Source of the DNA: an uncultured Acetatifactor sp.
GTDB lineage: Bacteria > Bacillota > Clostridia > Lachnospirales > Lachnospiraceae
Assembly: GCA_947594835.1 (NCBI GenBank)
Contig: CANQEH010000008.1
Span: 1 to 64,000, forward strand
Direction of reading: 5' to 3'
Length of the DNA: 64,000 nucleotides
Both the position numbers and the translations under genes were made by a program. Positions 8,344-56,117 of this stretch are shown piece after piece. Below the pieces are notes generated by a model that saw only the letters and a list, made by a program, of their open reading frames with translations, made no database searches and was not told where the DNA came from. Position 1 is the first letter of the stretch. Every line of letters begins with the position of its first letter.

Positions 8344-8373
8344 TATGCGTGCTAAAGCGCACAAGGGGTATAA
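8344..8373 (+). repeat. Leader mini-repeat, copy A
   Basis: Contains the hairpin GTGC/GCAC around AAAG followed by AAGGGGTATAA. The 3' part AAAGCGCACAAGGGG-TATAA is nearly identical to the copy at 54735-54760. The AGGGG would serve an ATG at 8376 that is followed at once by TGA, a start-stop pair just before the real SD (AAGGAG) of mntA at 8396. The long AT palindrome seen in other copies is absent here. Confidence 0.6.
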
Positions 8374-8395
8374 ATATGTGAAAAGGAGTCTGGTG

Positions 8396-8701
8396 ATGGC
8401 AGCAATTCTTGAGCTTCGCGATATACGGCAGAAAGTTTCTGATCTCGCGTCACAGTACGGTGCGGAACGGATTTTTCTCTTTGGCTCTTATGCAAGAGGA
8501 GAAGCTACTGTTGACAGCGATATAGATCTGCGTATCGACCGCGGACATATCAAAGGTTGGGCGCTCGGTGGGCTGCTTATAGATTTGGAAGCAGCTTTGG
8601 ATAAAAAAGTTGATCTGCTCACGACAGGCAGCTTGGATATTACTTTTTTAGATACCATTAAAAACGAGGAGATTTTGCTGTATGAACGGAAATCGGGATA
8701 A
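8396..8701 (+). CDS. mntA: MntA-type minimal nucleotidyltransferase antitoxin
   Basis: 101-residue nucleotidyltransferase of the MNT group. The signature G30-S-Y-A-R-G ... S41-D42-x-D44 is intact. In characterised MntA-HepT systems the MNT protein neutralises the HEPN ribonuclease by adding AMP to a tyrosine. The start at 8396 follows AAGGAG with good spacing; the longer frame from 8345 only reads through the leader repeat. The gene overlaps hepT by 20 bases, the usual arrangement for this toxin-antitoxin type. Its AT-rich composition differs from the 2-8 kb block, consistent with acquisition. Confidence 0.9.
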   Translation: MAAILELRDIRQKVSDLASQYGAERIFLFGSYARGEATVDSDIDLRIDRGHIKGWALGGLLIDLEAALDKKVDLLTTGSLDITFLDTIKNEEILLYERKSG

Positions 8702-9032
8702 AAATGTTTTATCACATATCATTAAATATTGTGAACAGATTGAGGAAACAGTCGCTTTATTTGGTGCAGATTACAATATTTTTTGTGGAAATAACACTTT
8801 TCGGAATGCCTGTTGTATGTGTCTTTTACAGATTGGTGAGTTATCTAATTCTTTATCAGATGATTTTCGTGATGGTCATACGGCGATTCCATGGAAACAG
8901 ATTCGTGGTTTTCGGAATATAATTGCCCATGCCTACGGAACTGTTGAACCGTCTGTTGTGTGGGAGATTATTACAGCTGAATTGTCGGAATTAAAAGAAT
9001 ACTGTCACAAATGTATATCAGAGGAAAGATAG
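8682..9032 (+). CDS. hepT: HepT-like HEPN ribonuclease toxin (DUF86)
   Basis: 116-residue HEPN-domain protein. The catalytic RX4HXY motif is complete at R78-N-I-I-A-H83-A-Y85; the tyrosine is the residue AMPylated by MntA in studied pairs. The protein should cleave RNA or tRNA when free of its antitoxin. Translation is coupled to mntA through the 20-base overlap. Such pairs stabilise mobile DNA or act in phage defence; here it sits immediately before an ATPase/TOPRIM pair. Confidence 0.9.
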   Translation: MNGNRDKNVLSHIIKYCEQIEETVALFGADYNIFCGNNTFRNACCMCLLQIGELSNSLSDDFRDGHTAIPWKQIRGFRNIIAHAYGTVEPSVVWEIITAELSELKEYCHKCISEER

Positions 9033-9053
9033 AATAAATATACAAGAATTTTT

Positions 9054-9395
9054 ATGACTGCAATTTTGTGGCTTCCCAAACGGTCACGATGCTTCACTGC
9101 TTGGAAGATTGTTAAATCCAACGTGGATATTTTTTCTTTCAAATCTACACATGATGTTTCCTATGCTGCAAAGGCCAGCAGACTCACCGAAGAAGCGGAC
9201 GGTAAGCGGAGCGGGTATCAATGGGAAGAAATGCTGTTTACGCAGCTCTATGACCGCCTGGTTTATGGATTGCTGGAAGAAAGACTTAAAGGAAACGCTC
9301 AGGGCGAGGAAGAACGGCCAGAGCGTTTCTTTTTATTTCATTGCCGGAACCAGATATTTTTTATGAAAAAAAGTTGCATAAAAAATACTGAGTGA
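9054..9395 (+). other. Doubtful ORF or gene remnant
   Basis: A 113-codon frame without a ribosome binding site or recognised family. Its last third runs through a rho-independent terminator and a promoter -35, so the full frame is unlikely to be a functional gene. The middle part (SGYQWEEMLFTQLYDRLVYGLLEERLKG) reads like a piece of a real helical protein, which suggests a decayed fragment. Confidence 0.2.
9293..9337 (+). terminator. Rho-independent terminator after mntA-hepT
   Basis: AAACGCTC (9293-9300) pairs with GAGCGTTT (9321-9328), followed by CTTTTTATTT. Confidence 0.75.
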
Positions 9396-9401
9396 TATAA
9401 T
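9374..9401 (+). promoter_or_regulatory. Sigma-A type promoter of ATPase/TOPRIM pair
   Basis: TTGCAT (9374-9379) and TATAAT (9396-9401), 16-base spacer, 36 bases before the ATPase start. Confidence 0.6.
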
Positions 9402-9437
9402 AATGTTAGAGAGAAAAAAGACTTGGAGGAATGGGAT

Positions 9438-10715
9438 GTGATTATAGAGATTAGAGCAAAAAACTGTTATGCATTTGAGGATGACATTAGATTTTCAATG
9501 AAAGCAGATATGAGAAATAAAAAATTCGGATCCAATGTTCATAAAGAAAACAATTTTAATGTGCTTAAAACGGCAGGGATATATGGCCCAAACAATGCAG
9601 GAAAAACCTGTTTAATTAAGTGTATCAGGGCAATAAAAAATGTACTTTTAAATAAGAAAGATAGTTTAATGCCTAATATATTTACTGAGAGTGGTATATG
9701 TGAGTTAGGCGTAACCTTTATGTTATCTGGAAGAAAGTTTTCTTATGACTTTAAATATGACGCAGAAAAAGAAGAATATATATACGAAGCATTTTCTGAA
9801 ATATTTAAAGATCAGTATAATAATGAAAAAGAAGTCTGCTGGTTAAAAAAAGATACCATCAGGGAAAGATATGAATGCATTGATGAAACTGTGCAGACTA
9901 TGATTCCAGTTGTATCAAAAAATAATTTGCTATGTTATGTAATAGATACAAGTAAATTTGAACATATCAATGAAATGAAGCACATTCTTGTTGGATTTGC
10001 TGAGAAAGTTGATATTATCAATATGAATAACATACCTATGCAGCACACGATTGAACTTATGAAGAATAAGAATCAATTACAGCAAAAGGTTGTTGAATTC
10101 ATAAAAAATGCAGACTTGTATATGGATAACTATGAATATGTGGATATGGATAAAATACAATTGAAAACTGGTGAAGAGGATGAAAAGCCGGACGAAAAAG
10201 TACTTGATATTCCAGAAAATATTATGGATCAAATCAGACTGGTTTCCACATATAAAGGTATTCATGTGCCAAGCATGATATTTGATTCTACTGGGACAAA
10301 GAAAATTGCAGCAATGGCAGGTTATGTTATTGAGGCACTTGAACGGGGAAGGATTCTCGTCGTGGATGAGCTGGACAGCAGTATTCATTTTAAGCTTACC
10401 AGGGCCATTGTTGCGATGTTTAATAATGAATTGAATACCAGTGCGCAGTTGATATTTACCGTTCACGATATAAATCTTATGGATTGCAAGAGGCTGTTCC
10501 GAAAAGAGCAGATTTGGTTTGTCCACAAGGATGAAGAGGGCGTGTATGTATATTCACTTGCTGATTTTACTGCACAGCAGGGGGTACGGGACACGACAGA
10601 TGTAGCGGAAAAATATAGGAAGGGTGCTCTTGGAGCATTACCTGATCCAGAATTGATTTACTCGTTGCTTCGCATAAAAGGTGATGTAAAGGGGGATGCT
10701 GCCGATGCCGAATAA
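9438..10715 (+). CDS. AAA15-type ATPase of a predicted two-gene defence module
   Basis: 425-residue ATPase of the OLD/AAA15 (ABC-like) group. Walker A is G50-PNNAG-K56-T57; Walker B is ILVVD310-E311 followed by LDSSIH and a later TVHD histidine strand. A signature-like STGTKK precedes Walker B. A GTG start at 9438 is preferred because GGAGGA lies 7 bases upstream; the frame could also begin at TTG 9423. It overlaps the TOPRIM gene. An ATPase of this kind beside an RloB/TOPRIM protein is the layout of AbiL-type abortive infection and is related in concept to PARIS and OLD systems. The function is inferred from this pairing. Confidence 0.82.
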   Translation: MIIEIRAKNCYAFEDDIRFSMKADMRNKKFGSNVHKENNFNVLKTAGIYGPNNAGKTCLIKCIRAIKNVLLNKKDSLMPNIFTESGICELGVTFMLSGRKFSYDFKYDAEKEEYIYEAFSEIFKDQYNNEKEVCWLKKDTIRERYECIDETVQTMIPVVSKNNLLCYVIDTSKFEHINEMKHILVGFAEKVDIINMNNIPMQHTIELMKNKNQLQQKVVEFIKNADLYMDNYEYVDMDKIQLKTGEEDEKPDEKVLDIPENIMDQIRLVSTYKGIHVPSMIFDSTGTKKIAAMAGYVIEALERGRILVVDELDSSIHFKLTRAIVAMFNNELNTSAQLIFTVHDINLMDCKRLFRKEQIWFVHKDEEGVYVYSLADFTAQQGVRDTTDVAEKYRKGALGALPDPELIYSLLRIKGDVKGDAADAE

Positions 10716-11337
10716 GCTCCCTAAGTTTCTTGACAAGCATAAAATCTGTATTATCTGCGAAGGCAATGAGGAGTATGCGTATCTTAAACACTTGAAAGAT
10801 TTGAAAGTGTGGAACGAGCAATATGATATTTTATTAGTGAATGCCGGCGGCAATGGGAATATTCCGGCGAGGTATCAGGACAGATACCAGAATGGAGCAG
10901 ACGAACTGGTGCTTGTGTTCTGTGATACGGAAAAGAAGCCTTATGAGCAGTATGGGGATATTAAACGTAAGATCAACGAATTTCATGGCGTGGATCATGC
11001 TGCGGACAAGGTAATTATATTTGGCAATCCCTGTACGATGCAGATCATATCCAAACATTGGACAGATGAAAATTTGAAATCTCCAGCAAAGTCGGTGAAT
11101 GCTCCCTTAATTAGAGAACATACCGGGGTGGAGAATTATAAAGGCAGAGCAGATCAGATTGAACAGGTTATGAAATATGTGACGAAGGAGAATTATGTGG
11201 ATATGCGCCAGCGGGTGAGAAATCTGGAGAAGGATGATTCTGCTGCTGGAAGCAGTAATTTTGGAAAGTTTATACAGTTGTTTGAAAGTGATGACAGCAG
11301 ATGGATTGAGGAAATGAATGGATCATTAGAAAGGTAG
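10705..11337 (+). CDS. RloB/AbiLii-like TOPRIM nuclease partner
   Basis: 210-residue protein with a TOPRIM-like core: strand ICIICE19-G-N-E-E near the N-terminus and LVLVFCD74-T-E76, matching the Glu and DxD/E metal-binding positions of RloB/AbiLii proteins. I chose ATG at 10705 because a GGGGG tract lies 9 bases before it; ATG at 10696 has no spacing to that tract. It overlaps the ATPase gene by 11 bases, so the two are coupled. It likely acts as the effector nuclease controlled by the ATPase, by analogy with AbiL, Gabija and PARIS. A direct family assignment needs a profile search. Confidence 0.7.
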   Translation: MPNKLPKFLDKHKICIICEGNEEYAYLKHLKDLKVWNEQYDILLVNAGGNGNIPARYQDRYQNGADELVLVFCDTEKKPYEQYGDIKRKINEFHGVDHAADKVIIFGNPCTMQIISKHWTDENLKSPAKSVNAPLIREHTGVENYKGRADQIEQVMKYVTKENYVDMRQRVRNLEKDDSAAGSSNFGKFIQLFESDDSRWIEEMNGSLER

Positions 11338-11371
11338 ATTTTTTAGGCATCCGGAGCAGGGAATTTGAGGA

Positions 11372-11399
11372 TTGTAAAACATAAGAAATGTGTTAGAAT
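11372..11399 (+). promoter_or_regulatory. Likely promoter of the DUF1189 gene
   Basis: TTGTAA (11372-11377) and TAGAAT (11394-11399) with a 16-base spacer, 63 bases before the start codon. Confidence 0.45.
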
Positions 11400-11461
11400 A
11401 TCCCTAGGGGAACAAAGCGGGAACTGCTTTGGGATCCGGCAAAAAAAGGGAGGGGATTGCC

Positions 11462-12265
11462 ATGAATGTGTTCAAAGAGATGTCTTTATCCATTTACAGC
11501 TATGAAAGCTACCGGGAATTTTTGAAAAATAAGAAGGGCAAGGTGTTTGGCTACGCCCTGCTTCTCATGTTTTTGTATTTTCTTATCGCCTGGTTCCTTC
11601 CCGGAATGATCAGCCTGGGGCTGCCCTCGGAGATGGCCCGGGAGATCCGGGAAAACGTGCCGGATTTTGAGCTGGAAGACGGCAGGCTCTGGGTGGAGCG
11701 GCCTTTTGAAATCGATGCAGACACCACCTATATCTACGCAGACACCGGGGAAAGCCTGGGCGATGTTTCCCAGATTGCGCAGCAGCTTGCCCCTTATCAG
11801 ACTGCTTTGCTGATGGACTCCAGCCAGATGATCGTAAAAAGCCAGGGGTCGGTGCAGGCCCTGTCCTTTTCCGCTCTGGATCTGGAACTGGACAGAGAGG
11901 ATCTGGTGGAACTGATCCCGATGCTCTATGTGGGCGCACTGGTAGGGATGGTTTTTTTGTATGTGTGGATCACGGCATTGTTTTTCCTGGGCGTTTTGTT
12001 CGTAGCGCTGCTTGGGATGATTGTGGCGACCACCATGCATTATGAGCTGACCTTCGGGCAGCTGTATCTTCTGGCGATTTACAGCAGGACGCTGCCATTG
12101 CTCATCAAGGCGGTGCTCTCTTTCCTGCCCATCCATATCCCGGCTTTCTGGGTAATCAATTTTGGGCTGTCCCTGCTCCTCCTTGCCCTGGCTATCCGCA
12201 AGATGAAGGAACAGCCTGCGGAGGGGCCGTATAACGCGCCTCCCATGGAGGGGATGGGGCAATGA
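11462..12265 (+). CDS. DUF1189-like integral membrane protein
   Basis: 267-residue membrane protein. The N-terminal stretch SIYSYESYREFLKNKKGKVFGYALLL, one helix, a soluble extracytoplasmic segment of about 110 residues, then three or four helices match the layout of DUF1189 proteins. The function of the family is unknown; some are linked to envelope stress. ATG at 11462 follows GGGAGGGG. The stop overlaps the next start (ATGA), so it is coupled to the histidine phosphatase. Confidence 0.7.
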   Translation: MNVFKEMSLSIYSYESYREFLKNKKGKVFGYALLLMFLYFLIAWFLPGMISLGLPSEMAREIRENVPDFELEDGRLWVERPFEIDADTTYIYADTGESLGDVSQIAQQLAPYQTALLMDSSQMIVKSQGSVQALSFSALDLELDREDLVELIPMLYVGALVGMVFLYVWITALFFLGVLFVALLGMIVATTMHYELTFGQLYLLAIYSRTLPLLIKAVLSFLPIHIPAFWVINFGLSLLLLALAIRKMKEQPAEGPYNAPPMEGMGQ

Positions 12266-12993
12266 AATTGTTGTTTATCAGGCACGGCGACCCGGACTAC
12301 AGCGTGGATTCCCTGACGGAAAAGGGATGGAGGGAGGCGGCGTATCTTGCCGAGCGATTGGCCCGGATAGATGCCCGGGCATATTATGTCTCGCCCCTTG
12401 GCCGGGCGAAAGACACGGCTTCCCTCACCATGAAGGCTGTGGGAAAAACTGCGGTAGAGTGTGAGTGGCTGCGGGAGTTTGCCCCCCGTATCCACAGGCC
12501 GGATACCCCGGATGGGATGCAGATCGCCTGGGACTGGCTGCCGCAGGATTGGCTTGGGGAGGAGCGCTTTTTTGACCACAGGCGCTGGTATGAGCCTCAG
12601 GCCTTTGCAGAGGCTAAGGTACAGGCGGAGTATCAGTGGGTGACCTCTCAGCTGGATCTCCTTTTGGCCGGGTATGGCTATCGGCGGGAGGGAGACTTTT
12701 ACCGGGTGGAGCAGCCCAACAACGACACCATTTTGTTTTTCTGCCATTTCGGGGTGACCTGTGTGCTGTTGGGGCATCTCTTGCACGTCTCGCCCATGGT
12801 GCTCTGGCATGGGTTCTGCGCCGCGCCCACTTCCGTGACCACGGTGATCACGGAGGAGCGCCGCAAGGGCATCGCTTCTTTCCGGGTCAACGCGTTCGGC
12901 GATATCTCCCATCTGTACGCAAAGGGAGAGCCCCCCGCCTTTGCCGCCCGGTTCTGCGAGTGCTATGACAATGAGGGGGAGCGGCGGGACTGA
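12262..12993 (+). CDS. Histidine phosphatase family protein
   Basis: 243-residue member of the phosphoglycerate mutase/phosphatase superfamily. The RHG motif with the phospho-accepting histidine is at residues 7-9 (FIRHGDPDYS); the second catalytic region is FFCHFGVTCVLLGHL with its histidine. The long insert between them suggests a small-molecule phosphatase rather than a glycolytic mutase; the substrate cannot be named. Overlaps the DUF1189 gene by four bases. Confidence 0.85.
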   Translation: MKLLFIRHGDPDYSVDSLTEKGWREAAYLAERLARIDARAYYVSPLGRAKDTASLTMKAVGKTAVECEWLREFAPRIHRPDTPDGMQIAWDWLPQDWLGEERFFDHRRWYEPQAFAEAKVQAEYQWVTSQLDLLLAGYGYRREGDFYRVEQPNNDTILFFCHFGVTCVLLGHLLHVSPMVLWHGFCAAPTSVTTVITEERRKGIASFRVNAFGDISHLYAKGEPPAFAARFCECYDNEGERRD

Positions 12994-14094: not shown

Positions 14095-14158
14095 TTTTCC
14101 TTTCAAACTTTTTCTTTCACTTTGAACGATACGCCTAACTATGTGTTTTTCACACGAA

Positions 14159-16545: not shown

Positions 16546-16554
16546 TTGGCTACG

Positions 16555-17382: not shown

Positions 17383-17385
17383 TTT

Positions 17386-17472
17386 TACACCCCTAGCGTG
17401 CCTTAGCACGCACACCAAGAGGGTGTGTAAACACCCCTCTTTTTAGAATTTGACAGTTTACTTTCAAACTTT
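17386..17472 (-). repeat. Leader mini-repeat, copy B
   Basis: Read on the minus strand: palindrome TTTGAAAGT-AA-ACTGTCAAA, a middle hairpin (GAGGGGTGT/ACACCCTC), hairpin GCGTGC/GCACGC, then AGGGGTGTAA and the CPBP start codon. Shares its first palindrome and its 3' part with copy C at 36267, in the same order. Confidence 0.65.
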
Positions 17473-35576: not shown

Positions 35577-36911
35577 ATGATGGGCAGTCATGAAATCTTA
35601 GCGCCTGCTTTGCAGAAATTTTACAGTGCATTGAAGTCGCTGGACGAATTTGGCCGGAAGGGTGATTTCTTTGACGATGTTTCCAATTTAGACAAGTTTT
35701 TTTCTGAGTTTAGAAACATTACCTTTGTGATACAGAAGAGCCTGCATACAGAGGAAAACAAAAGAATATACGCGGAATTGCGGGATCGCCTGCTGACGGG
35801 CGACACATTGAAATGGTTTATCAATACGCGCAACAGGACGACGAAAGAGAGACCTTTTGAATTGAAAAAGGAGCTTGTCCTTGACCTGTACCTGCCGGGC
35901 GGCCCGTACACGTTAAAAGACCCTGACCTTGTGGTTGACGTGGAGGCATCGTTTCACGAGGCGCTGCAGGGTATCCGGTCGGTTTGTTTTGAAAAACTGG
36001 GATTGGCAGAGGTGTTTTTTACGGCAAGGATTCTCTTTCGGGAGGCGGACGATCCCGTTGACATTTATCCCAAAATCAAAGAGGGCATTGCCCAGATGGA
36101 GCGTTTTTTGAGAGAAATCGGGGAACATTTTCCCTGTGGCTGCGGACAATGCCTTGCCCTGAAAGAAAAAATTGACACGCTGCTTGGCAGGCTACAGTGG
36201 AAAGAACTGCATTTTGTCAATGATTACACTTTGGAGCTTGGGAAGGAAGTCCGAAGAGGGGAAAAGTTTGAAAGTAAACTTTCAAATTCTGATTTGTATG
36301 CGTGCTGAAGCACGCTAGGGGTATAAGAAAGAAATCTGCCTTCCGACAGAAGGGGCGGCGTCTGTTTCTTCTCGGAACAGAGAGTCCCGCTGGATGACCC
36401 GGTCTATGGAAGCGCAAAAGGCTGCCTGCAGGAACTGTTTCTGCGCTTTGCCTCGATGCACACGAAAATATTTCAAAAACAGGAGCACCACATCACGCCT
36501 GTTTTTATGGTGATCTATCAGGATCAGACGTATCGTCTGGCGCCCTTTTTTGCTGACATAAAAGCGACATTTTACCGCAAGGCATTGGAAATTGCAAATC
36601 TGCCGGATTTTGATGAGGTCAGCGCTGTGTTTTACTGCGGCGAGTATTACCTGTACGATGCGACGCAGTTTCAGGAAATAAACCGCAAGCCCTATTCGGA
36701 GCGCATCCATCGCGCACAGAAGGAAGTCTTATCTTTTGTCATGCTCGCAAAAGGCGGCGCAGAGATGAGTATCTATTTAGAGGAAAGCCGCATGGAAGAC
36801 GCGCAATATATCTCGGAACAATTGAAGTGTCCGCAATGGTGCAGGCCGGGCGATCCTGTGTCATTTGGCTGGCTTGGCCCCATCCGCCAGAAATTATCCC
36901 CTGAAAAATAA
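35577..36911 (+). pseudogene. DUF-type gene interrupted in frame by a leader mini-repeat
   Basis: Two pieces in the same reading frame. Piece one (35577-36266) encodes about 230 residues with no family I can name, including a CGCGQC motif. Piece two (from about 36327 to 36911) continues as LPSDRRGGVCFFSEQRVPLDD into a globular domain of about 190 residues (FYCGEYYLYDATQFQEIN). Between them lies repeat copy C, about 60 bases, adding stops TGA 36306 and TAA 36324. Removing it restores one open frame of roughly 425 codons. The ATG at 36456 could only restart translation internally. Start at 35577 follows GAAGGGGTGGG. Confidence 0.62.
36267..36327 (+). repeat. Leader mini-repeat, copy C (gene-interrupting)
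   Basis: TTTGAAAGT-AA-ACTTTCAAA (36267-36286), TTCTGATTTGTAT, perfect hairpin GCGTGCT-GA-AGCACGC (36300-36315), then TAGGGGTATAAG. Same order and orientation relative to the downstream sequence as copy B. About 60 bases, a multiple of three. Confidence 0.7.
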
Positions 36912-37369
36912 TGTCCTTTTGGCTAAACAGTATGTCCGTATCTTCCTGCACACTCCCGCATCTTTCATGCTTTTTCAACTGCATACCGCAGGGGGCCTCA
37001 ACATCCTCTTTTCAGGATGTCATCATGCAAAGAAGCAAAACCACAACCGGCAAAGCATATTTTTTCATCTATTGTGTCCCCTATTCCGTTGAAATACCAG
37101 TTTGCCGCTTCATAAAGTCCTGCTGAAATGATAGCGCACAAAGGAAACCGTATCAAGGTCTCAAGGATTCAAGATAACAAAAGGAGCAGGGGTTGGGACA
37201 AGGCTTTAAAATGACAGATAAGGTGCGCAGTCCTCTGCGGTGCGGCCCTTGACACATACGGGAAATCGTGGTTTAATTAAAAATAGTAATATGGACTACG
37301 ATTCCAGGTCTTGCGCTGCGCCAAAACCGGGCGATCGATCAACAGAAACGCAGCAGGGAGGGATTTTTG
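36912..37369. other. Gene-free stretch with promoter of the envelope operon
   Basis: A good sigma-A type promoter lies at TTGACA 37249-37254 and TTTAAT 37272-37277 (17-base spacer), 93 bases before the zinc-ribbon gene. The first 300 bases show no gene or known RNA. Confidence 0.55.
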
Positions 37370-39163
37370 ATGAATTGTCCAAGATGTCATGCCGTCATTG
37401 CAGACGGCGCTAAATTCTGCACCAAGTGCGGTGCAAAGATAGAAGGGGCGGCAGCCAGTGCGCCCATGCCGCAGATGGCGCCTATGACGCTCTGTAAAAC
37501 CTGCGGCGCTTTGTTGAAATCGGGCGCCAGATTCTGCACCAAGTGTGGTACGCCCACAGGTGTGCCGGAGACGGCGGTGCCTGAGGCATCGGTCCCTGTA
37601 CAGCCCGCGCCTGCGGCATCAGTTCCTGTACAGCCCGCGCCTGCGGCATCGGTTCCCGTACAGCCCGCGCCTGCGGTATCGGTTCCCGTACAGCCCGCGC
37701 CCACGGCATCGGCCCCGGTACAGTCCGCGCCTGCGGCATCAGTTCCTGTACAGCCCGCGCCCGCGGCATCGGCCCCGGTACAGTCCGCGCCTGCGGTATC
37801 GGCCCCGGTACAGCCCGCGCCTGCGGCATCAGCTCCTGTACAGCCAGCCCCTGCGGCTCCAAAGCCCGTGCAGCCAGCCCCTGCGGCACAAGAGGTTCCG
37901 CCGCAGCCGGCGCCCGAAAAGGCCAAGAAGAAAAAGAGCAGGCTTCCCTTGATCCTGCTTATCATCTTCCTGCTGCTGGTACTATGCGCAGGGGGATATG
38001 TGGGATATCGGTACTGGCAGTATCAGAAGGAAGTGGAGGATAGCGGCGGAGAAAGCGAAGAGATCGGCAGCTTCTGGGATTATCTGCTCAACCGCAAGGC
38101 AGAGGATACGGATTCAGACGATGATTCGGACGATGCAGACGATTCGGACACTGTGTCTGATTCGGACGATGCAGACAATCCAGATGCCACGTCCGATGCA
38201 GAGGGTGAGGATACGGCGCCCGATAATGCAGCGATTCTGGCTCCCGTGGACGAGCAGCTGGAAGCGGTAAAGACGGAGTATGAGGCAGCCTCCTACACCA
38301 ATGCGTTAAATGACAGCATTGGAGTATTGGAGCAGTATATGAGCGTAGGAGAGGGCAGGCATCCCATGGAGGAGGCCCAGGATCACATTGCGGAAGCCTT
38401 TTCCATCGCCTCCCGGTCGGCCATCGAAAGCAGCAGGATCTTGGAGAGCCAGCAGCCCGGCAGCGCCATCTACGAACAGATCTGCATTTATGTGGATCCC
38501 GTTGTGGAAATGGCGGACACCCTGACCCAGGCCGGGTATACGGTGGACAGCCAGGAGATCACCGATTACAGTGATGGTATCGTCCCCATGTTCCGGGAGA
38601 AATACATCCAGATTATCAACTCCTTTACGGAGCGGGATCAATGGTCCAGGGACGAGGCATGGACTTACGCGGAGCAGGCGTACAAAACGCAGAAGGACGG
38701 CAAAACGGTGCTCTTTGACGTAACGGATCTGGACGACCCGCTGCGGCTTCGGTATGTGTACTGCTTTGCCTGGATTACTGCCAAGCGGTGCGAATCCATG
38801 ACCCCGGAGGACGCTTTTGAGAATCTGACGGCTGTGTTAGAGGAGACGGATTACAATCCGCTGCTTCTGCAGGATATCATTACCTACGGAACCACCGCGA
38901 AAAAGGATGTGTCCAGATATCAGGCGGCCTATGACGCCATTGTCAAAAAGATCAAAGAGGAACAGAAGTTTTCCATCGTGAAGGAATCCGGCGGCGTGAG
39001 CTCCGCCAGCAGTGCAGAACTGCGCAAATTCTGGTACTTCAATGATTTAAGCGGCGATGCTGCATACATTGTGGATTCAAACAACGGGACAACCCAGGCC
39101 ACAAGAGACTGGATCCGGGCCAATGTGCCGGGCATCATTGACCCCGATGCGGTGGCGCAATGA
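37370..39163 (+). CDS. Zinc-ribbon membrane protein with Pro-Ala-Val-Gln repeat linker
   Basis: 597 residues. Two N-terminal zinc ribbons (CPRCHAVIADGAKFCTKCG and CKTCGALLKSGARFCTKCG), ten units of a 10-residue repeat ASVPVQPAPA (residues 73-172), a Lys cluster, one membrane helix (about 187-208), an Asp/Ser-rich stretch, and an extracytoplasmic domain of about 330 residues of unknown type. Zinc ribbons inside and a helical domain outside suggest a membrane scaffold or sensor. ATG 37370 is preferred to TTG 37367; AGGGAGGG lies upstream. Its stop overlaps the next start (ATGA), heading a coupled envelope operon. Confidence 0.78.
   Translation: MNCPRCHAVIADGAKFCTKCGAKIEGAAASAPMPQMAPMTLCKTCGALLKSGARFCTKCGTPTGVPETAVPEASVPVQPAPAASVPVQPAPAASVPVQPAPAVSVPVQPAPTASAPVQSAPAASVPVQPAPAASAPVQSAPAVSAPVQPAPAASAPVQPAPAAPKPVQPAPAAQEVPPQPAPEKAKKKKSRLPLILLIIFLLLVLCAGGYVGYRYWQYQKEVEDSGGESEEIGSFWDYLLNRKAEDTDSDDDSDDADDSDTVSDSDDADNPDATSDAEGEDTAPDNAAILAPVDEQLEAVKTEYEAASYTNALNDSIGVLEQYMSVGEGRHPMEEAQDHIAEAFSIASRSAIESSRILESQQPGSAIYEQICIYVDPVVEMADTLTQAGYTVDSQEITDYSDGIVPMFREKYIQIINSFTERDQWSRDEAWTYAEQAYKTQKDGKTVLFDVTDLDDPLRLRYVYCFAWITAKRCESMTPEDAFENLTAVLEETDYNPLLLQDIITYGTTAKKDVSRYQAAYDAIVKKIKEEQKFSIVKESGGVSSASSAELRKFWYFNDLSGDAAYIVDSNNGTTQATRDWIRANVPGIIDPDAVAQ
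37586..37885 (+). repeat. Ten tandem 30-bp units inside the zinc-ribbon gene
   Basis: Each unit encodes ten residues (consensus A-S-V/A-P-V-Q-P/S-A-P-A). Units differ by a few bases, some exactly alike, so the array can gain or lose units in frame and change the linker length. Confidence 0.85.
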
Positions 39164-49240: not shown

Positions 49241-51919
49241 ATGGCAGGGTTAGAGACACCGCCTGTGCCCGGAGAAAACCCGGAGAAAAGTCAATACGGC
49301 GCTTATGCTGCGCCCTGTCTGCCGGCGCGTAAGCAGGCGGACAACCAGGGGGCGAGCGTCATCCTGCCTCCTGGCGAGATCCGGATCTCTGTCCGGGGGC
49401 TGGTGGAGTTTGTGCTGCGCCATGGGGACATCGACAACCGCAGGCAGGCCGCCCCGGACAATGCCATGCAGGAGGGCGGCAGGATCCACCGCATGATCCA
49501 GCGGCGGATGGGCGCGGACTACAAAGCGGAAGTCCCCTTAAAATATACGCTGCACACCGGGGAGTATGTGCTGGTGGTGGAAGGCAGGGCGGACGGCGTC
49601 ATCCGCCGGGAGGAAACTGCGGTCATCGACGAGATTAAGGGCACCTACCGGGAGCTGTCCCGCCTGAAAGCGCCCCTGCCGCTGCATCTTGCCCAGGCAA
49701 AATGCTATGCATATCTCTATGGCCGGGATCAGGGGCTGGATCAGGTACAGGTGCGGCTCACCTACTGCCACATCCCCACGGAGGAGCTGCGCTATTTTTA
49801 CCAGACCGATACGATGGCGGATCTGGAGGAGTGGTTTCTGGCGCTGATCGCCTCCTATCGGAAGTGGGCGGACTATGCCTGGGAGTGGAGAAAAACCAGG
49901 CAGGCTTCCATCCAGGGGCTCCCCTTTCCCTTTCCCTACCGGGAGGGCCAGAGAGAGCTGGCGGCCCAGGTCTATCGCACCATTTATCACGGAAGGAAGC
50001 TGTACCTGGAGGCGCCCACCGGGGTGGGCAAAACCATGGCCGCCATCTATCCCGCGGTGCAGGCCGTGGGGAAGGGTATGGGAGACCGGATCTTTTACCT
50101 GACCGCTAAGACCATCACCAGAACGGTGGCGGAAGACGCCTTCGCCCTCCTGCGCAGGAAGGGGCTCTGCTTCAAAAGCGTGATCCTTACCGCAAAGGAA
50201 AAGATCTGCTTTATGGAGGAAGCCCGCTGCAACCCGGAGGAATGCCCCTATGCCAAGGGCCATTTTGACCGCGTCAACGACGCCATGTATGATCTGCTCA
50301 CCGGGCAGGAGAGCTTTGGGCGGGAGCAGATTGAGAGCTGTGCGAAAAAACATCGGGTCTGCCCCTTTGAACTGAATCTGGATATGAGCCTGCTGGCGGA
50401 TGCGGTGATCTGCGATTACAACTATCTGTTCGACCCCCATGTGTATTTAAAGCGCTTTTTTGCGGAGAGCGTATCGGGAAACTATCTGTTTCTCATCGAC
50501 GAGGCCCATAATCTGTTAGAGCGGGGGAGGGAGATGTACAGTGCCTCCTTGTGGAAAGAACAGTTTCTGGAAATGCGCCGGGAAATAAAACAGACGCAAG
50601 TGTCAGAAATAGGAAAAGGCAGTATTATTGGGCAGATTTCCATGGATATGTCATCCCTTTCGACGGAAATGTCACAAGATCTGGAGGCGGTTGACCAGAC
50701 GGGTACTGCCCTCGGGAAGGGGCGGGGGACTTCCGGCAGAGGCTTGTGGGAGAAGATCCTCTATCATCTGGAGCGGTGCAACCGGGAGCTGTTAGCCCTG
50801 AAGCGGGAGTGCGGCGAAAGCCGGGTGGCAGAGGGGATCGATCCCTTTGTACAGGCGCTGATGCGGCTGCACGCGGCCATGGACGAATACCTCTCCGAGC
50901 CGGAGGAGAGGCCGCTTCCGATACGGGAACAGCTTTTGGAGTTCTTTTTTGACATCAGCCATTTCCTGGCCATCTATGAGCTGGTGGATGAAAATTACAT
51001 CACATACACCCAGATGGAGGAGGACGGGAGGTTCCTTTTAAAGCTTTTCTGCGTCAATCCCCGGGAGAATCTGAAAAGCTGTATGGGGAAGGGGCGCAGC
51101 GCCATCCTCTTTTCCGCCACTTTCCTGCCCATCCAGTATTACAAACGGCTGCTGGGCGGGGAGCCGCAGGACTATGAGGTGTACGCCACATCGGTGTTCG
51201 ACCCGGGAAAGCGGGGGCTGTTTGTGGCAAGCGACGTGACCAGCAAGTACACCCGGCGATCGGAGGAGGAATACCAAAACATCGCCCGGTATATCGAGGA
51301 AATCGTCAAAAACCGCCACGGCAACTATATGGTCTTCTGCCCCTCCTACGCCTTCTTGCGGGAAATCTATACGCGCTATCTGGAGCGCTACGGCGGGGAG
51401 GAGCGGGTCTGCCTCCTGCAGGGCGAGTCCATGCGGGAGGAGGAGCGGGAGGCGTTTCTGGCTCAGTTTAGGGCAGACAATCAGCTGGAGGCCCTGCAGG
51501 AGAAGGTGGCCTTTGAGATTCAGGTGCAGGATCGGGTGCTCATCGGCTTCTGCGTGCTGGGAGGGATTTTCGGAGAGGGGATCGACTTAAAGAACGATTC
51601 CCTGATCGGCGCAATCATCGTGGGGACGGGGCTGCCCCAGGTCTGTTTTGAGCGGGAGCTGATCAAGGGGTATTTTGACGGCGCGGGGGAGGACGGGTTC
51701 GACTATGCCTACCGCTACCCGGGTATGAACAAGGTGCTCCAGGCCGCGGGGCGGGTGATCCGCACAGTGGAGGACGTGGGCATTGTGGCGCTGTTGGATC
51801 AGCGTTTTCTGCAGCCCGCTTATCGGAAGCTGTTTCCCCGGGAATGGGAGGGGTATGAGACGGTGACGGCGGACACGGTGGCCAAACGGGTGAAACGCTT
51901 CTGGGACGCCTGGCTGTGA
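49241..51919 (+). CDS. RecB-type nuclease fused to DinG/XPD-like DNA helicase
   Basis: 892 residues. Residues about 50-200 form a PD-(D/E)xK nuclease of the RecB/Cas4 type: H83, D118 (GRADGV), E131-I-K133 and Q152-x3-Y156 are all present. The rest is an Fe-S superfamily 2 helicase: Walker A APTGVGKT with K264, cysteines in CFMEEARCNPEEC and CAKKHRVC, DEAH at 420-423 (LIDEAHNL) and motif VI QAAGRVIRTVED. Predicted to unwind and cut DNA during repair. ATG 49241 follows GAGGGTG; GTG 49202 is less likely. Stands alone between two terminator-bounded regions. Confidence 0.88.
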   Translation: MAGLETPPVPGENPEKSQYGAYAAPCLPARKQADNQGASVILPPGEIRISVRGLVEFVLRHGDIDNRRQAAPDNAMQEGGRIHRMIQRRMGADYKAEVPLKYTLHTGEYVLVVEGRADGVIRREETAVIDEIKGTYRELSRLKAPLPLHLAQAKCYAYLYGRDQGLDQVQVRLTYCHIPTEELRYFYQTDTMADLEEWFLALIASYRKWADYAWEWRKTRQASIQGLPFPFPYREGQRELAAQVYRTIYHGRKLYLEAPTGVGKTMAAIYPAVQAVGKGMGDRIFYLTAKTITRTVAEDAFALLRRKGLCFKSVILTAKEKICFMEEARCNPEECPYAKGHFDRVNDAMYDLLTGQESFGREQIESCAKKHRVCPFELNLDMSLLADAVICDYNYLFDPHVYLKRFFAESVSGNYLFLIDEAHNLLERGREMYSASLWKEQFLEMRREIKQTQVSEIGKGSIIGQISMDMSSLSTEMSQDLEAVDQTGTALGKGRGTSGRGLWEKILYHLERCNRELLALKRECGESRVAEGIDPFVQALMRLHAAMDEYLSEPEERPLPIREQLLEFFFDISHFLAIYELVDENYITYTQMEEDGRFLLKLFCVNPRENLKSCMGKGRSAILFSATFLPIQYYKRLLGGEPQDYEVYATSVFDPGKRGLFVASDVTSKYTRRSEEEYQNIARYIEEIVKNRHGNYMVFCPSYAFLREIYTRYLERYGGEERVCLLQGESMREEEREAFLAQFRADNQLEALQEKVAFEIQVQDRVLIGFCVLGGIFGEGIDLKNDSLIGAIIVGTGLPQVCFERELIKGYFDGAGEDGFDYAYRYPGMNKVLQAAGRVIRTVEDVGIVALLDQRFLQPAYRKLFPREWEGYETVTADTVAKRVKRFWDAWL

Positions 51920-52171
51920 CAGGGGAAAACCCAAAGACAGCGGAAATGACAGAGTGGAAATGCCAAAATGACATATGTGTAAATGTGGATAACTTTGTGG
52001 ATTTGTCAGCTTTTCGGGGAATTGACACGGGAAAATGACAGCCGGATTCCTTTTCCCACGAAAAGGCTTCCCGGGGAGAGCAGAAAACGGTACTGAGTTG
52101 GTCAATGGACTTTTTATACTGAAAACTGAAAAGGTAAGGAAAGAAACATGGGAAAGAAATGAAAGAAAGAA
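51920..52171. other. Gene-free stretch upstream of GH13 gene
   Basis: Contains one perfect 9-base match to the DnaA box on the minus strand (TTATCCACA, 51984-51992) and a near match a few bases on (TTGTGGATT). No promoter I can defend and no gene. A single box is not evidence of an origin. Confidence 0.35.
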
Positions 52172-52262
52172 GTGAAACAAAGCAGTGAAATAAAGAAACG
52201 AAACAAAGAAACGAAATGAAGAAGCGCAATAAAGAAGTGAAATAAATACACGAAATAAAGGA
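52172..52262 (+). repeat. Seven tandem 13-bp purine-rich units
   Basis: Units of the type AGTGAAATAAAGA follow each other without a gap from 52172 to 52262, ending 8 bases before the GH13 start codon. Almost no pyrimidines apart from T and a periodic C/T at position 3-4. The array forms the 5' untranslated leader of the next gene. Confidence 0.75.
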
Positions 52263-52270
52263 AAGAGAGG

Positions 52271-53593
52271 ATGAAAAAGATGTGGGCTTATGAAAGTGTG
52301 TTTTATCAGATTTATCCACTGGGGTTCTGCGGGGCGCCCTTTGAGAACGACGGGGTGCTGGAGCATCGGATCTTGAAAGTGCTGGACTGGATCCCTCATA
52401 TGAAAAAGCTGGGGATAAACGCCATCTATTTTTCCCCGCTGTTTGAATCGGATACCCACGGTTACAATACCCGGGACTACCGGAAAGTGGACGTGCGCCT
52501 GGGAACCAATGAGGATTTCAAAAAGGTCTGCAATACCCTTCACGAGAACGGCATCAGGGTGGTGTTAGACGGGGTGTTCAACCATGTGGGCAGAGGGTTC
52601 GGCCCTTTTCTGGATGTGCTGGAAAAAAGGGAGGGGTCTTCCTATGTGAACTGGTTCCACCGCATTGATTTCGGAGGAAATTCCAACTACAACGACGGGC
52701 TCTGGTACGAGGGCTGGGAGGGCAACTATGACCTGGTGAAGCTGAACCTGCGCAATGAGGATGTGGTGCGGTATCTGCTGGAGAGCGTGGGCTTCTGGGT
52801 GGAGGAGTTTGGGATCGACGGGCTCAGGCTGGACGTGGCATACTGCCTGGATGAGAATTTTGTGCGCAGGCTCAGAAGCTACACCCAGGGGCTGAAAGAG
52901 GATTTCTTCCTGGTGGGCGAGATGCTGCACGGGGACTACAACCGCCTGATGGGGGACGGGATGCTGCACTCCGTCACCAACTATGAATGTTACAAGGGGC
53001 TTTACAGCAGCTTAAACAGCAGGAACCTGTTTGAGATCGTCCATTCCTTAAACCGGCAGTTCGGCCCGGAGAACTGGACGCTGTACAAAGGGAAGCATCT
53101 TTTGTCCTTTGCGGACAATCACGACGTGACCAGGGCGGCCAGCATCCTGTCCAACGAAAGGCACCTGCCCCTGATCTATGCGCTCGCCTTCGGGATGCCC
53201 GGGATCCCCTGCGTCTATTACGGGAGCGAGTGGGGCGCGAAGGGGGAAAAGAGCCAGGGGGATCCCGCCCTGCGGCCCTGCTTTGAAGCGCCCCAGTGGA
53301 ATGACTTAAGCAGCTGGATCAGCCTTCTGGCCCGGGCAAAGAGGGAGTCCGAGGCGTTAAACTACGGCGGTTTCCGGTCGGTTCTTCTGACCAACAGCCA
53401 GTGCATCTTTGAGCGGAAGACGGAAAACGAGCGGGTGCTGGTGGCCGTCAATGCGGACGGGGAAGACTATACAGCCCATTTTGACGCGGGATGCGGCCAG
53501 GCGGTGGATCTGATCACGGGGAAGCCCCATGATTTTGGAGGCGGTTCCGTGCTGCCGCCTTACAGCGCGGCCTTTTGGAAGATGGAGCGGTAA
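52271..53593 (+). CDS. GH13 alpha-amylase family glycosidase
   Basis: 440-residue intracellular enzyme (no signal peptide). TIM-barrel motifs: VVLDGVFNHVG (region I), GLRLDVA with the nucleophile Asp (II), LVGEMLHGDY with the acid Glu (III) and FADNHDVTR with the third carboxylate (IV). The short N-terminus and size resemble cyclomaltodextrinase or neopullulanase-like small GH13 members. Probably cleaves maltodextrins. AGGA lies 8 bases before the ATG, at the end of the tandem purine repeat. Confidence 0.9.
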   Translation: MKKMWAYESVFYQIYPLGFCGAPFENDGVLEHRILKVLDWIPHMKKLGINAIYFSPLFESDTHGYNTRDYRKVDVRLGTNEDFKKVCNTLHENGIRVVLDGVFNHVGRGFGPFLDVLEKREGSSYVNWFHRIDFGGNSNYNDGLWYEGWEGNYDLVKLNLRNEDVVRYLLESVGFWVEEFGIDGLRLDVAYCLDENFVRRLRSYTQGLKEDFFLVGEMLHGDYNRLMGDGMLHSVTNYECYKGLYSSLNSRNLFEIVHSLNRQFGPENWTLYKGKHLLSFADNHDVTRAASILSNERHLPLIYALAFGMPGIPCVYYGSEWGAKGEKSQGDPALRPCFEAPQWNDLSSWISLLARAKRESEALNYGGFRSVLLTNSQCIFERKTENERVLVAVNADGEDYTAHFDAGCGQAVDLITGKPHDFGGGSVLPPYSAAFWKMER

Positions 53594-53609
53594 TTTTTTT
53601 CATATGGTG

Positions 53610-53673
53610 TTGACATATAATATTATATGGTGTATAGTATGTGCAACAAGCAATATTATATGCCATATAATAT
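53610..53673 (+). promoter_or_regulatory. Promoter and PadR-type operators of the padR operon
   Basis: TTGACA (53610-53615), 17-base spacer, TATAGT (53633-53638). The spacer holds the palindrome ATATAATATTATAT (53615-53628). A second site ATATTATATG-C-CATATAATAT (53653-53673) lies just downstream. ATATGGTGT occurs twice across the -35 and -10. Positioned for autorepression by the PadR protein encoded next. Confidence 0.7.
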
Positions 53674-53694
53674 CTTGGACAGGAGGAGTGCAGT

Positions 53695-54066
53695 ATGACC
53701 TTTAATACAGGCGCAGCCCTTCTGGACGCCATTGTGCTTGCCGTTGTGTCCCAGACCCCCGACGGCACCTATGGGTACAAGATCACCCAGGAGGTCCGGC
53801 AGGTCATCGAGCTGTCGGAGTCAACGCTCTACCCGGTGCTGCGGAGACTGCAGAAAGACGAGTGCCTGGAAGTGTACGACATGGAGTGTGCGGGCAGGAA
53901 CAGACGGTATTACAAGGTGACCAGCAGAGGATGGGCACAGCTGAAGCTCTACGAGAGCGAGTGGCGGCAGTACGCCGAGAAGATCACGGGGCTGTTTGAG
54001 GGACGGATGCAGTTTTCCGCAGACGCAGATGAGAGAAAGGACAGCACAGAGTGCAGGGAGCGGTGA
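53695..54066 (+). CDS. PadR family transcriptional regulator
   Basis: 123 residues. PadR winged helix: LLDAIVLAVVSQTPDGTYGYKI, then LSESTLYPVLRRLQKDECLEVYD, RRYYKVTSRG, then a dimerisation helix. AGGAGG precedes the ATG. Next to a DUF1700 membrane protein and a DUF4097 protein, the common envelope-response trio in Firmicutes. The palindromes over its promoter suggest it controls its own operon. Confidence 0.92.
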   Translation: MTFNTGAALLDAIVLAVVSQTPDGTYGYKITQEVRQVIELSESTLYPVLRRLQKDECLEVYDMECAGRNRRYYKVTSRGWAQLKLYESEWRQYAEKITGLFEGRMQFSADADERKDSTECRER

Positions 54067-54067
54067 A

Positions 54068-54760
54068 ATGGGCAGAGATGAATTTATGAAGCAATTGGAG
54101 CGCTTGCTGCAGAATCTTCCTTCCGCGGAGCGGGAGGCGGCGCTGCAGTACTACAACGATTATTTTGACGACGCCGGGGCGGAGAATGAAAAAGAGGTGA
54201 TCGAGGCGCTGGGGAATCCGGCCCGAGTGGCGGAAAACATCAAGCGGGACTTAAACGGAACAGCCGAGGGAGACCGGGCAAAGGGCGGCAGCCGGGCGCT
54301 GGTGGAATACGGGAAAGATGTGCCGGAGGGCGGCGGGGAAGGCGGCCAGGGCACGGCGGAAAAAAAGAGCGGTTCCACGCTGCCCACCTGGGCCATTGTG
54401 CTTCTTGTGGTGCTTCTGGTTCTGGCTTCCCCGGTTCTTCTGGCCATAGGGGCCAGCGCCCTGGCGATGCTCATCGGCATTGTGGTCACCTGGGCGGCCT
54501 TGATCTTTGCATTTGGCGTGACGGCGCTTGCCCTGCTGGCAGCGTTTGGAGTGCTGGCGGTGGTGGGGATCTGGTGTATAGCGGCTGATCCTTTGATCGG
54601 CGCAGGCGTGATCGGATGCGGTCTGATCTGCGGGGGCGTGGGGCTTTTGTTCTTTCTGCTCACCACAGCCATGGGCGGCATGGCGACCCCTGCCATCTGG
54701 AAGGCGGTCATGGGACTTTTTCGCAAAAAAACACCTGCGAAAGCGCACAAGGGGGTATAA
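54068..54760 (+). CDS. DUF1700 (HAAS-type) membrane protein
   Basis: 230 residues. The N-terminal domain MGRDEFMKQLERLLQNLPSA onward with YYNDYFDDAG and VIEALGNPARVAENI is the HAAS signalling domain of DUF1700. Four hydrophobic helices follow from about residue 115. Predicted to work with PadR and DUF4097 in sensing the envelope. The final residues AKAHKGV are encoded by leader repeat copy D, so the 3' end has been rewritten by the repeat. Starts one base after padR ends. Confidence 0.87.
   Translation: MGRDEFMKQLERLLQNLPSAEREAALQYYNDYFDDAGAENEKEVIEALGNPARVAENIKRDLNGTAEGDRAKGGSRALVEYGKDVPEGGGEGGQGTAEKKSGSTLPTWAIVLLVVLLVLASPVLLAIGASALAMLIGIVVTWAALIFAFGVTALALLAAFGVLAVVGIWCIAADPLIGAGVIGCGLICGGVGLLFFLLTTAMGGMATPAIWKAVMGLFRKKTPAKAHKGV
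54735..54760 (+). repeat. Leader mini-repeat, copy D (3' part)
   Basis: Hairpin TGCG-AAAG-CGCA (54736-54747) then CAAGGGGGTATAAG, almost the same as copy A. It runs directly into the full repeat R1, so two elements stand in tandem and the first forms the end of the DUF1700 gene. Confidence 0.6.
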
Positions 54761-54856
54761 GATTGAAAATTAAAATTTTCAATCGCGAGATTTGTGTCCG
54801 CGCGCTGCTTGACACAAACTCGTTATGCGCAAAGAGCAGCGCGGAAATGAGGTATA
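54759..54856 (+). repeat. 98-bp leader repeat R1
   Basis: Identical over 98 bases to 56020-56117. Parts: palindrome GATTGAAAATT-AA-AATTTTCAATC; TTTGTGTC that can pair with GACACAAA; CGCGCTGCT that can pair with AGCAGCGCG. The last two pairings interleave, so the RNA could switch between them or form a pseudoknot. Ends in GAGGTATA, which serves the DUF4097 start 8 bases later. Confidence 0.85.
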
Positions 54857-54859
54857 GAG

Positions 54860-55858
54860 ATGAAAAAAATGATGAAAATATGCGCCGTGACCGCGGTGGC
54901 GCTGATTGCGCTGGGGATGGTGCTGGCCCAGACGGCAAAAGCGGCGCGGGGCAGCGCCCGGATTTCCCAGGTGGTAGCCCAGGCCACAGACGGGCGTCTG
55001 GACTTGCAGCTGGGAAACGGGCAGAACGGGATCTGGGGCATTTACTGGAACGGCCCGGCAGACTGGGATGGGGCGGAAAGCCATGAGACGGACGTCACCC
55101 ATGAGACGGACAGCCAGCAGCACGGGGAACTGCATCACGGCGAAAGCGCAGGGCAGGCTCCGGCGGGAAGCGAGTCCTTCGACCCGGAGCAGGTGAGAGA
55201 TCTCGCCGTTCAGGCGGGGGGCTGCATCTTTGAAATGGAAACTTCCCCGGACGGGCTCTTTTATGTGACGGCGGAGGGGGTCCGGAAATTCCGGTGCTAT
55301 CTGGAGGAGGGAACTCTGCACATCGAAGCGGAGGACGCCCGGGTGGGCATCGGCATCGACACAAGCGCCATCGGAACCGTCACCCTGTATGCGCCGGAGG
55401 GGCACAGCTATGGGGAGGTGGAGATGGAAGCGGGGGCCGGCACGGTGTATGTAAACGGCCTGAAGGCTGGGGAAGTCTCCCTGGAGGCAGGGGCGGGCGT
55501 CATCGAGGCTAAGGATATCCAGGCCCGGGAGATGGAGCTCTCCGTAGGCGCGGGGCAGATCTCGCTCTACGGGATGGATGTAGAGTCCCTGGATGCGGAG
55601 ACCGGCCTGGGCGAGCTGACCGCCCGGGGCAGGATCGGCGCAGACGCCAGCCTGGCGTGTTCTATGGGAAATATAGAGCTGGAGCTGGAGGGCAGCCAGC
55701 AGGACTTTAACTATCGGCTGGAAGCCGCCGCCGGGGAGATCGAACTGGGGACGGAGCACTGCAGCGGCCTGGCCAGCGAGCGGTGGATCGACAACGGGGC
55801 GGGGAAGACGCTGGAGGCGGAGTGCGCCATGGGCAGCATCCAGATCCTCTTTCAATGA
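54860..55858 (+). CDS. DUF4097 beta-helix protein
   Basis: 332 residues with an N-terminal signal or membrane helix (about 5-30) and a linker rich in His, Glu and Gly. The C-terminal 200 residues repeat the pattern GTVTLYAPEG, GAGTVYVNGLKAGEVSLEAGAGVIEAKDI (shown in shorter segments) and similar strands typical of the DUF4097 parallel beta-solenoid. Partner of DUF1700/PadR in cell-envelope responses. The GAGG of repeat R1 lies 7 bases before the ATG, so its translation signal comes from the repeat. Confidence 0.82.
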   Translation: MKKMMKICAVTAVALIALGMVLAQTAKAARGSARISQVVAQATDGRLDLQLGNGQNGIWGIYWNGPADWDGAESHETDVTHETDSQQHGELHHGESAGQAPAGSESFDPEQVRDLAVQAGGCIFEMETSPDGLFYVTAEGVRKFRCYLEEGTLHIEAEDARVGIGIDTSAIGTVTLYAPEGHSYGEVEMEAGAGTVYVNGLKAGEVSLEAGAGVIEAKDIQAREMELSVGAGQISLYGMDVESLDAETGLGELTARGRIGADASLACSMGNIELELEGSQQDFNYRLEAAAGEIELGTEHCSGLASERWIDNGAGKTLEAECAMGSIQILFQ

Positions 55859-55949
55859 TCCTGCCGCTGGCCCGGTAAAAAAGATGTATTCTGGCACTTT
55901 TCACCATGCCATACTTACCTTATACTGGCGTAAGACAATACAGCCATCC

Positions 55950-56016
55950 CGGAGGGAACGCCGGCGTCAGTACACAAGCCCTCCGCTGATGCGGGAGCCG
56001 CTTCAGGCGGCAGAAG
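55950..56016 (+). promoter_or_regulatory. Alternative hairpins upstream of the ECF S-component gene
   Basis: CGGAGGG (55950-55956) can pair with CCCTCCG (55979-55985), and GCGTCAG (55964-55970) with CTGATGC (55986-55992). The two pairings interleave and the 3' halves touch, so they are probably mutually exclusive. A small hairpin GCCGC/GCGGC follows. It does not match any riboswitch class I know. Confidence 0.35.
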
Positions 56017-56019
56017 GAG

Positions 56020-56117
56020 AAGATTGAAAATTAAAATTTTCAATCGCGAGATTTGTGTCCGCGCGCTGCTTGACACAAACTCGTTATGCGCAAAGAGCAG
56101 CGCGGAAATGAGGTATA
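56020..56117 (+). repeat. 98-bp leader repeat R2
   Basis: Exact copy of R1 (54759-54856), same orientation, 1261 bases apart. Ends in GAGGTATA 3 bases before the ATG of the ECF transporter gene and supplies its ribosome binding site. Confidence 0.85.

Follow-up and report, generated by a model that had tools for sequence, protein, structure and literature searches.

Why should near-identical, foldable sequences stand directly before the start codons of genes with unrelated functions? The question is raised by positions 1 to 64,000 of contig CANQEH010000008.1 (assembly GCA_947594835.1) from an uncultured Acetatifactor species of the Lachnospiraceae, a 64,000-nucleotide (nt) stretch hereafter called the window, in which two related repeat types, A-type (~63 nt) and R-type (~97 nt), occupy six places. 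These repeats are real and belong to a large family that has apparently not been described so far. A-type and R-type are probably two subfamilies of one non-autonomous mobile element of Lachnospiraceae, and it is likely that this element inserts into the gap between the Shine-Dalgarno (SD) sequence and the start codon of a gene and supplies an SD itself. A first-pass annotation of the window had proposed a mobile leader carrying a ribosome binding site, and this idea is well supported by placement scans, orthologue comparison and covariation.

Repeats in the window

An A-type copy consists, in order, of an AT hairpin (AAGTTTGAAAGTAAACTTTCAAATT), a linker (TTGATTGGTAT), a GC hairpin (e.g., GCGTGCT/AGCACGC) and AGGGGTATAA. 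An R-type copy begins with the AT hairpin GATTGAAAATTAAAATTTTCAATC, continues with an H-type pseudoknot and ends in GAAATGAGGTATAA; within the pseudoknot, CGAGATTTGTGTC is able to pair with GACACAAACTCG, and the intervening loop with AGCAGCGCG further on. A covariance model of the A-type was built from 11 copies of the source genome, of which only that at 36264 lies inside the window. The model re-finds four further copies, all outside its training set: 17385-17471 on the minus strand, 8315-8373, R1 and R2 (Table 1). Because R1 and R2 are matched by a model made without R sequences, the architecture is common to both types. Pattern searches agree: the GC hairpin plus AGGGG occurs three times in the window and the R palindrome twice, against no match to either in 100 shuffles. 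A further R-model match at 36734 (E 0.009) is weak, lies within an open frame and looks like chance.

The first-pass annotation had listed at least six copies sharing one order of parts, with a GC hairpin in each. The copies do lie where they were placed, and the shared order stands as a related architecture divided into two subfamilies rather than one. The GC-rich part of R1 and R2 forms mainly one strand of the pseudoknot, with no simple hairpin, and the entries at 54735 and 8344 are degenerate rather than full copies. The first-pass reading is correct for the copy at 17386 on the minus strand and for R1 and R2, whose purine tails do lie at SD distance from the start.

Table 1. Repeat copies and associated features in the window.
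Feature	Coordinates	Strand	Basis	What follows
Degenerate A-type copy (the first-pass 8344 copy)	8315..8373	+	A model, E 1.8e-4	ATG at the canonical place (8376), TGA immediately after; the next real gene, with an SD of its own, begins at 8396
A-type copy; an additional hairpin (AAGAGGGGTGTTTACACACCCTCTT, minus strand) separates the two conserved ones	17385..17471	-	A model, E 1.9e-7	CAAX-protease-like gene, its ATG 7 nt downstream of AGGGG
Full-length A-type copy, two hairpins and AGGGGTATAA	36264..36326	+	In the A model training set	AAG at the canonical place, where ATG is expected
Degenerate A-type tail, GC hairpin remnant and AGGGGGTATAA	54732..54760	+	By eye; no match by the A model	R1 directly behind
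R-type copy R1: AT hairpin 54761-54784, pseudoknot, GAGG SD	54761..54857	+	A model, E 6.2e-5	DUF4097 gene, its ATG at 54860
Native SD region (AGAAGGAGAA) of the gene at 56121	56012..56021	+	Sequence reading	R2, between this SD and the start
R-type copy R2: AT hairpin 56022-56045, pseudoknot, GAGG SD	56022..56118	+	A model, E 2.5e-5	ATG of an ECF-transporter S-component-like gene at 56121

Copy number and range

The source genome was searched as a draft assembly (2.76 Mb, 47 contigs). Queried with R by plain DNA similarity, it yields 19 matches, 96-104 nt long and 97-100% identical; these occupy 17 sites, three of the copies standing in tandem. With the R model, 30 matches appear at E <=1.4e-4 and 48 at E <=1. 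The A query returns 26 rows at E <=0.0012, or ~24 copies, two of them split into two pieces.

Across a sample of the family, the R model is positive in 68 of 397 genomes and 60 of 334 genera (E <=0.001), compared with 22 of the 397 genomes by plain DNA search. A class-wide draw of 391 genomes yielded nine R-positive members, four in Lachnospiraceae and five outside; the latter five hold single matches (E 2e-6 to 8e-4) that are possibly due to chance. Within the genus, 54 of 101 genomes contain the A-type, whose copies also line up head to tail, as many as four in a row and overlapping by the AA; in genome G408, 51 of 52 scored A candidates match.

Searches of the window against Rfam 15 gave nothing relevant at the gathering score, tRNA was the sole match at that score among 18 loci, and one R locus examined at E <=10 drew four matches, all far below gathering scores. 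Plasmids, scanned for the R type alone, contained no match, and IMG/VR held no exact pattern match. Seventeen unverified human faecal records labelled 'Bacteriophage sp.' hold R copies of 82-89% identity, and in each of the 13 that were read (L428-L440) an ATG triplet, counted irrespective of frame, lies close on the 3' side. The records opened are unannotated and unverified, and no claim is made that phages carry R. A full-text literature search, whose reach excluded most subscription papers, had no title on SD-targeted repeats among the matches listed, and 'Lachnospir' is absent from the accessible parts of two structured-RNA surveys (PMC8632094, PMC6429828).

Placement at start codons

Placement was scored as the presence, inside a 6-nt span at the 3' end of the R model, of an ATG that begins an open frame of 20 or more codons. 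Such an ATG accompanies 106 of 118 R copies: 27/30 in the source genome, 25/29 among the best copies of other genomes (29 of the 67 other R-positive genomes) and 54/59 in four copy-rich genomes, the last set drawn mostly from the top matches (23 of 36 for G196, 11 of 40 for G164, all 16 for G391, and 9 among the matches listed for G273); four copies sit in two sets and are counted twice. The same score was reached at the antisense end by 5 of 118 copies, at random positions of the same loci by 485 of 5900 (8%), and at other SD-like motifs by 399 of 5291. When the 19 source-genome copies identified by DNA similarity are considered, an ATG follows each except the two upstream members of the triple, and for two copies it opens a short frame.

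The A-type behaves similarly. A sample of 30 loci, one (the best) per genome from the 54 positive genomes, contained 28 copies placed in sense before a start codon, a count made partly by eye. Twenty-four of these loci were measured by script: the ATG stood at an identical offset in 18 and within one base of it in two, two copies had an ATG with a short frame, and one each was followed by another A copy or by an R copy. At the six loci judged by eye, the ATG lies ~2 nt behind the TATAA-like end. In the source genome, two of the 24 A copies are followed by another copy, leaving 22 to score, several of whose junctions were read by eye; the copy ends exactly 2 nt before ATG or TTG in 15, 1 nt before in two and 3 nt before in one, while in another, the window copy at 8344, the ATG is followed by TGA. 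The suggestion that the repeats lie before genes, in sense and not at random, is thus borne out for both types.

Could such a distribution arise if insertion were untargeted and selection then spared those copies that happened to restore an SD at the right spacing? Copies failing to do so would damage genes, and the distance from GAGG to ATG is exactly 7 nt in 13 of the 15 R copies of the source genome that precede an open frame of at least 40 codons, tighter than the SD-to-start gap of ordinary genes (mean 7.4, sd 2.3, n=104, by a crude count). Under this explanation, however, neutral places, such as those behind genes or antisense in leaders, should hold many copies. Just 12 of 118 R copies lack a 3' ATG, and the low antisense count given above points the same way, making an origin by untargeted insertion very unlikely.

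Insertion between an existing SD and its start codon

Comparison with orthologues indicates how the elements came to lie there. The dapA gene of the source genome reads GGATGGAGGAGAAAA, then R, then AGATG. At 80 other dapA loci, one of them with only 18 nt of upstream sequence, the SD stands directly before the ATG in 80/80 and the element in 0/80; a word scan turned up three short chance words, none at the junction. Many of these relatives are records labelled Acetatifactor or Lachnospiraceae. For the gene behind R2, 20 loci of the same genus were read by eye: 13 have a plain SD and start, one (L128, genome G493) has an internally deleted R, and in six the start could not be placed, although a word scan of these six detected no R or A word. 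At another locus of G493 (L384), the beginning of an R copy adjoins the end of an A copy.

The flanks of the copies tell a similar story. GGAG, GAGG or AGGA occurs within 14 nt to the left of R at 14 of 17 sites in the source genome, against a background of 444 of 2286 14-mers ending in AA (19%); all 17 left flanks end in AA. At one site certainly, and at up to three more possibly, the left flank is the end of an older element instead of a native SD. An SD core, sought with a slightly wider pattern, precedes 11 of 14 A copies. Taken together with the orthologues, these cores indicate that the existing SD has been stranded upstream, with the element's own SD in its place. The first-pass annotation had spoken of a leader that installs translation signals; the element does bring its own SD to the start, but it displaces an SD that was already present rather than furnishing a gene that had none.

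Copies also follow one another. At several sites of the source genome, inspected by eye, an older-looking copy stands upstream and an intact copy adjoins the ATG. At R1 a degenerate A copy precedes R, another stack has an A-like tail ahead of three R copies, and at three sites, judged by eye, the upstream A is more degenerate than the A that follows it. Bit scores of tandem A copies in other genomes gave no consistent decay order, so no general rule is claimed. Elsewhere, an A copy precedes apparently the same gene (start MNDDIFDK or MKDDIFDK) in three species (L392, L407, L410), which suggests that some insertions may be old and kept.

A mechanism can be proposed from these features. The element would insert in sense into the interval separating the SD of a gene from the start codon, usually with 2 nt left before the ATG (AA^NN-ATG in the source genome). 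Its 3' end carries an SD (AGGGG or GAGG) at the right distance, from which translation of the gene is expected to remain possible, with the native SD left stranded upstream. Later insertions may enter the same gap, giving rise to tandem and mixed stacks.

Conserved structure

Compensatory changes are present in both types. In the A-type (n=33 sequences), 98.5% of pair cells are standard and 36 are changed on both sides, against a shuffled mean of 11.2; sliding the partner by 1-3 columns lowers pairing to 19-54%. In R, 18 cells of helix S2 are changed on both sides (shuffled mean 7.8, maximum 13), counted after a script-made register shift of rows with short loops, and an alignment-free comparison gives a mean stem of 8.73 versus a partner-swapped maximum of 8.37. 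The same alignment-free comparison of the whole S1 stem revealed no covariation signal (mean 8.07; partner-swapped mean 7.85, maximum 8.27), because upper S1 is nearly invariant. In lower S1, pairing is better within a sequence than across sequences (3.0 versus a maximum of 2.7, with a few rows mis-parsed). The covariation is thus carried by both A hairpins and, within R, by S2 and the lower part of S1.

The 5' hairpin of R differs in sequence between genomes and is kept as a hairpin (arms GATTG, GAGTG, GTGTG, GGTTG); in some G196 copies it is swapped for AGAACCAAC/GTTGGTTCT. Hairpin modules at this end are exchanged or multiplied in G196 copies L215, L216, L285 and L291, and both hairpins occur in a row in L285. 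Four G391 copies (L276, L278, L281, L282) have a local GCCC/GGGC hairpin apparently in place of the pseudoknot's second helix, a form that seems to link the design of R with that of A.

Hairpins and pseudoknot are presumably under selection, most likely as recognition structures for a putative recombinase acting in trans, as a means of separating the folding of the new SD from that of the old leader, or as both; they may act as RNA or as folded DNA. RNA switching, which the first-pass annotation had raised as a possibility, may also play a part. A crude folding estimate that omits pseudoknots (n=12) gave no hint that the SD becomes more accessible: it is predicted unpaired at 0.40 with the element, compared with 0.55 in a reconstructed empty leader.

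Genes behind the copies

Of 33 downstream proteins scanned, 32 match Pfam families, including GatC, homoserine O-succinyltransferase, dihydrodipicolinate synthase, aminotransferases, an ECF transporter, solute-binding proteins, a cellulase, ABC transporters, glycosyltransferases, HTH regulators, Clp protease, HAD hydrolase and PSP1. These functions are unrelated, and the gene set is not coherent. In other genomes, reading frames behind copies resemble, by eye, gyrB, pheS, aspS, secG and others.

This list bears on whether the repeats are cis-regulatory RNAs (riboswitches, thermometers or protein-binding leaders) with a regulon, whose copies were recruited because the control was useful. A structured, covarying element right at the SD would suit such a role, and several of the genes behind R serve amino-acid metabolism or the charging of tRNA (homoserine O-succinyltransferase, dihydrodipicolinate synthase, GatC, aminotransferases). 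The remainder of the list, however, is scattered from transporters to PSP1, the element is missing from every compared dapA orthologue, and R copies are nearly identical within the genome. A regulatory origin is therefore decidedly unlikely.

Within the window, a nucleotidyltransferase (Polbeta, PF18765) and HepT-like (PF01934) pair lies behind the degenerate A copy at 8344 (8396-9032); it resembles MntA/HepT toxin-antitoxin pairs. A 30-nt tandem repeat array (37519-37938) lies within the frame of a zinc-ribbon protein (37367-39160).

Junctions and the search for a mobilizing enzyme

Which enzyme might move the elements? The Y1 transposase (PF01797) is present in 5 of 12 copy-rich genomes, and the IS110 transposase (PF02371) in 3 of 7. 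Neither was detected in the draft source genome or in the complete genome G391, both rich in copies, and IS110 was likewise missing from G196 and G273. At 14 transposase loci of other genomes, R or A ends match at E 0.3 or worse, which is chance level.

The junctions differ between genomes. In G391, 7 of the 11 copies with a definable junction have the same 4-nt spacer on the left as at their right end (permutation mean 1.9, p 0.0003). A scripted test of spacer matching gave p<0.0005 for G391 and p 0.006 for the human faecal contigs (13), and no support in the source genome (p 0.97), G196 (0.69), G164 (0.82), G273 (0.57) or the single-copy set (0.30); the test is weak in the source genome because its right ends are nearly constant. 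A general target-site duplication thus finds no support in the source genome and may apply to the faecal contigs and G391. In the source genome, both junctions share AA, which would fit recombination across a 2-nt core; the spacer matches in G391 and the faecal contigs tell against such a core.

These matches could also reflect spread by copying between SD regions over short homologies (gene conversion, slippage, template switching or an RNA-templated route), with no transposase involved. The spacer matches in G391 and the faecal contigs, together with the failure to find Y1 and IS110 enzymes in the source genome and G391, speak for such copying; the sets in which spacers do not match, of which the source genome offers low power, speak against it. 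Moreover, 6 of the 7 matching G391 left flanks resemble, by eye, the ends of older copies, so tandem duplication could explain the match instead. Copying over short homologies is on balance rather unlikely.

Several points weigh against insertion of a non-autonomous element that carries its own SD. Neither a mobilizing gene nor an autonomous copy was found, with Y1 and IS110 both undetected in the source genome and G391. In G391 and the faecal contigs, the SD beside the ATG often repeats the left flank, which would not be expected from a simple model of an element bringing its own SD. Training of the R model used copies preceding starts, and the last columns of the model enter the ATG, a mild bias in the placement count. 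Finally, 3 of the 22 scored A copies of the source genome have no start at the expected place (AAG at 36264, an ATA, and an ATG 16 nt away).

Related systems and implications

Short hairpin units spread in trans have precedents. Repetitive extragenic palindromic (REP) sequences and bacterial interspersed mosaic elements (BIMEs) are non-autonomous, are spread by RAYT (Y1) transposases and usually sit behind genes. A and R resemble them as short, non-autonomous hairpin units with proposed spread in trans; they differ in that R ends at an ATG in the great majority of copies and Y1 was found in neither the source genome nor G391. The contrast drawn earlier, that these repeats stand before rather than behind genes, therefore holds.

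Miniature inverted-repeat transposable elements (MITEs) of IS200/IS605 or IS110 type have folded ends, and their target is similar to the end of the element. The folded ends of A and R and a target like their own end (AA/TATAA) would fit this type; in contrast to such MITEs, neither transposase was found in the source genome, and no A or R ends above chance level were seen at the 14 transposase loci elsewhere. Some elements integrate in tRNA gene ends and rebuild them. A and R likewise use a universal site and restore its function, but they are ~63-97 nt long, carry no integrase, have thousands of possible sites and rebuild an SD instead of a tRNA.

The nearest described relatives found are the pneumococcal BOX, RUP and SPRITE repeats, which are short, multi-copy interspersed repeats, clustered and inserted into each other. 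They are judged parasitic by the authors and, per Table 1 of that paper, are over-represented between convergent genes (PMC3049150). A and R share with them many short, dispersed, structured and stacked copies; like that class, they show presence and absence at orthologous sites (dapA; the gene behind R2). Unlike repeats of convergent gaps, nearly every A or R copy ends at a start codon, in sense, with an SD.

If the proposed insertion is correct, a parasite would achieve harmless insertion by rebuilding the most repeated signal of a bacterial genome. The ribosome-binding sites of dozens of genes per genome, housekeeping genes included, would be acquired copies of a few structured leaders; the translation of unrelated genes would be linked, and natural, portable ribosome-binding-site parts would be on offer. 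The question would also arise of an enzyme that recognizes an SD together with a start codon. More tentatively, A and R may exemplify a class of mobile elements that integrates at the translation-initiation regions of arbitrary genes and substitutes its own ribosome-binding site, its targeting reading the SD and start codon as a DNA motif or as mRNA. Were this so, whole gene sets would be translated from a few mobile leaders.

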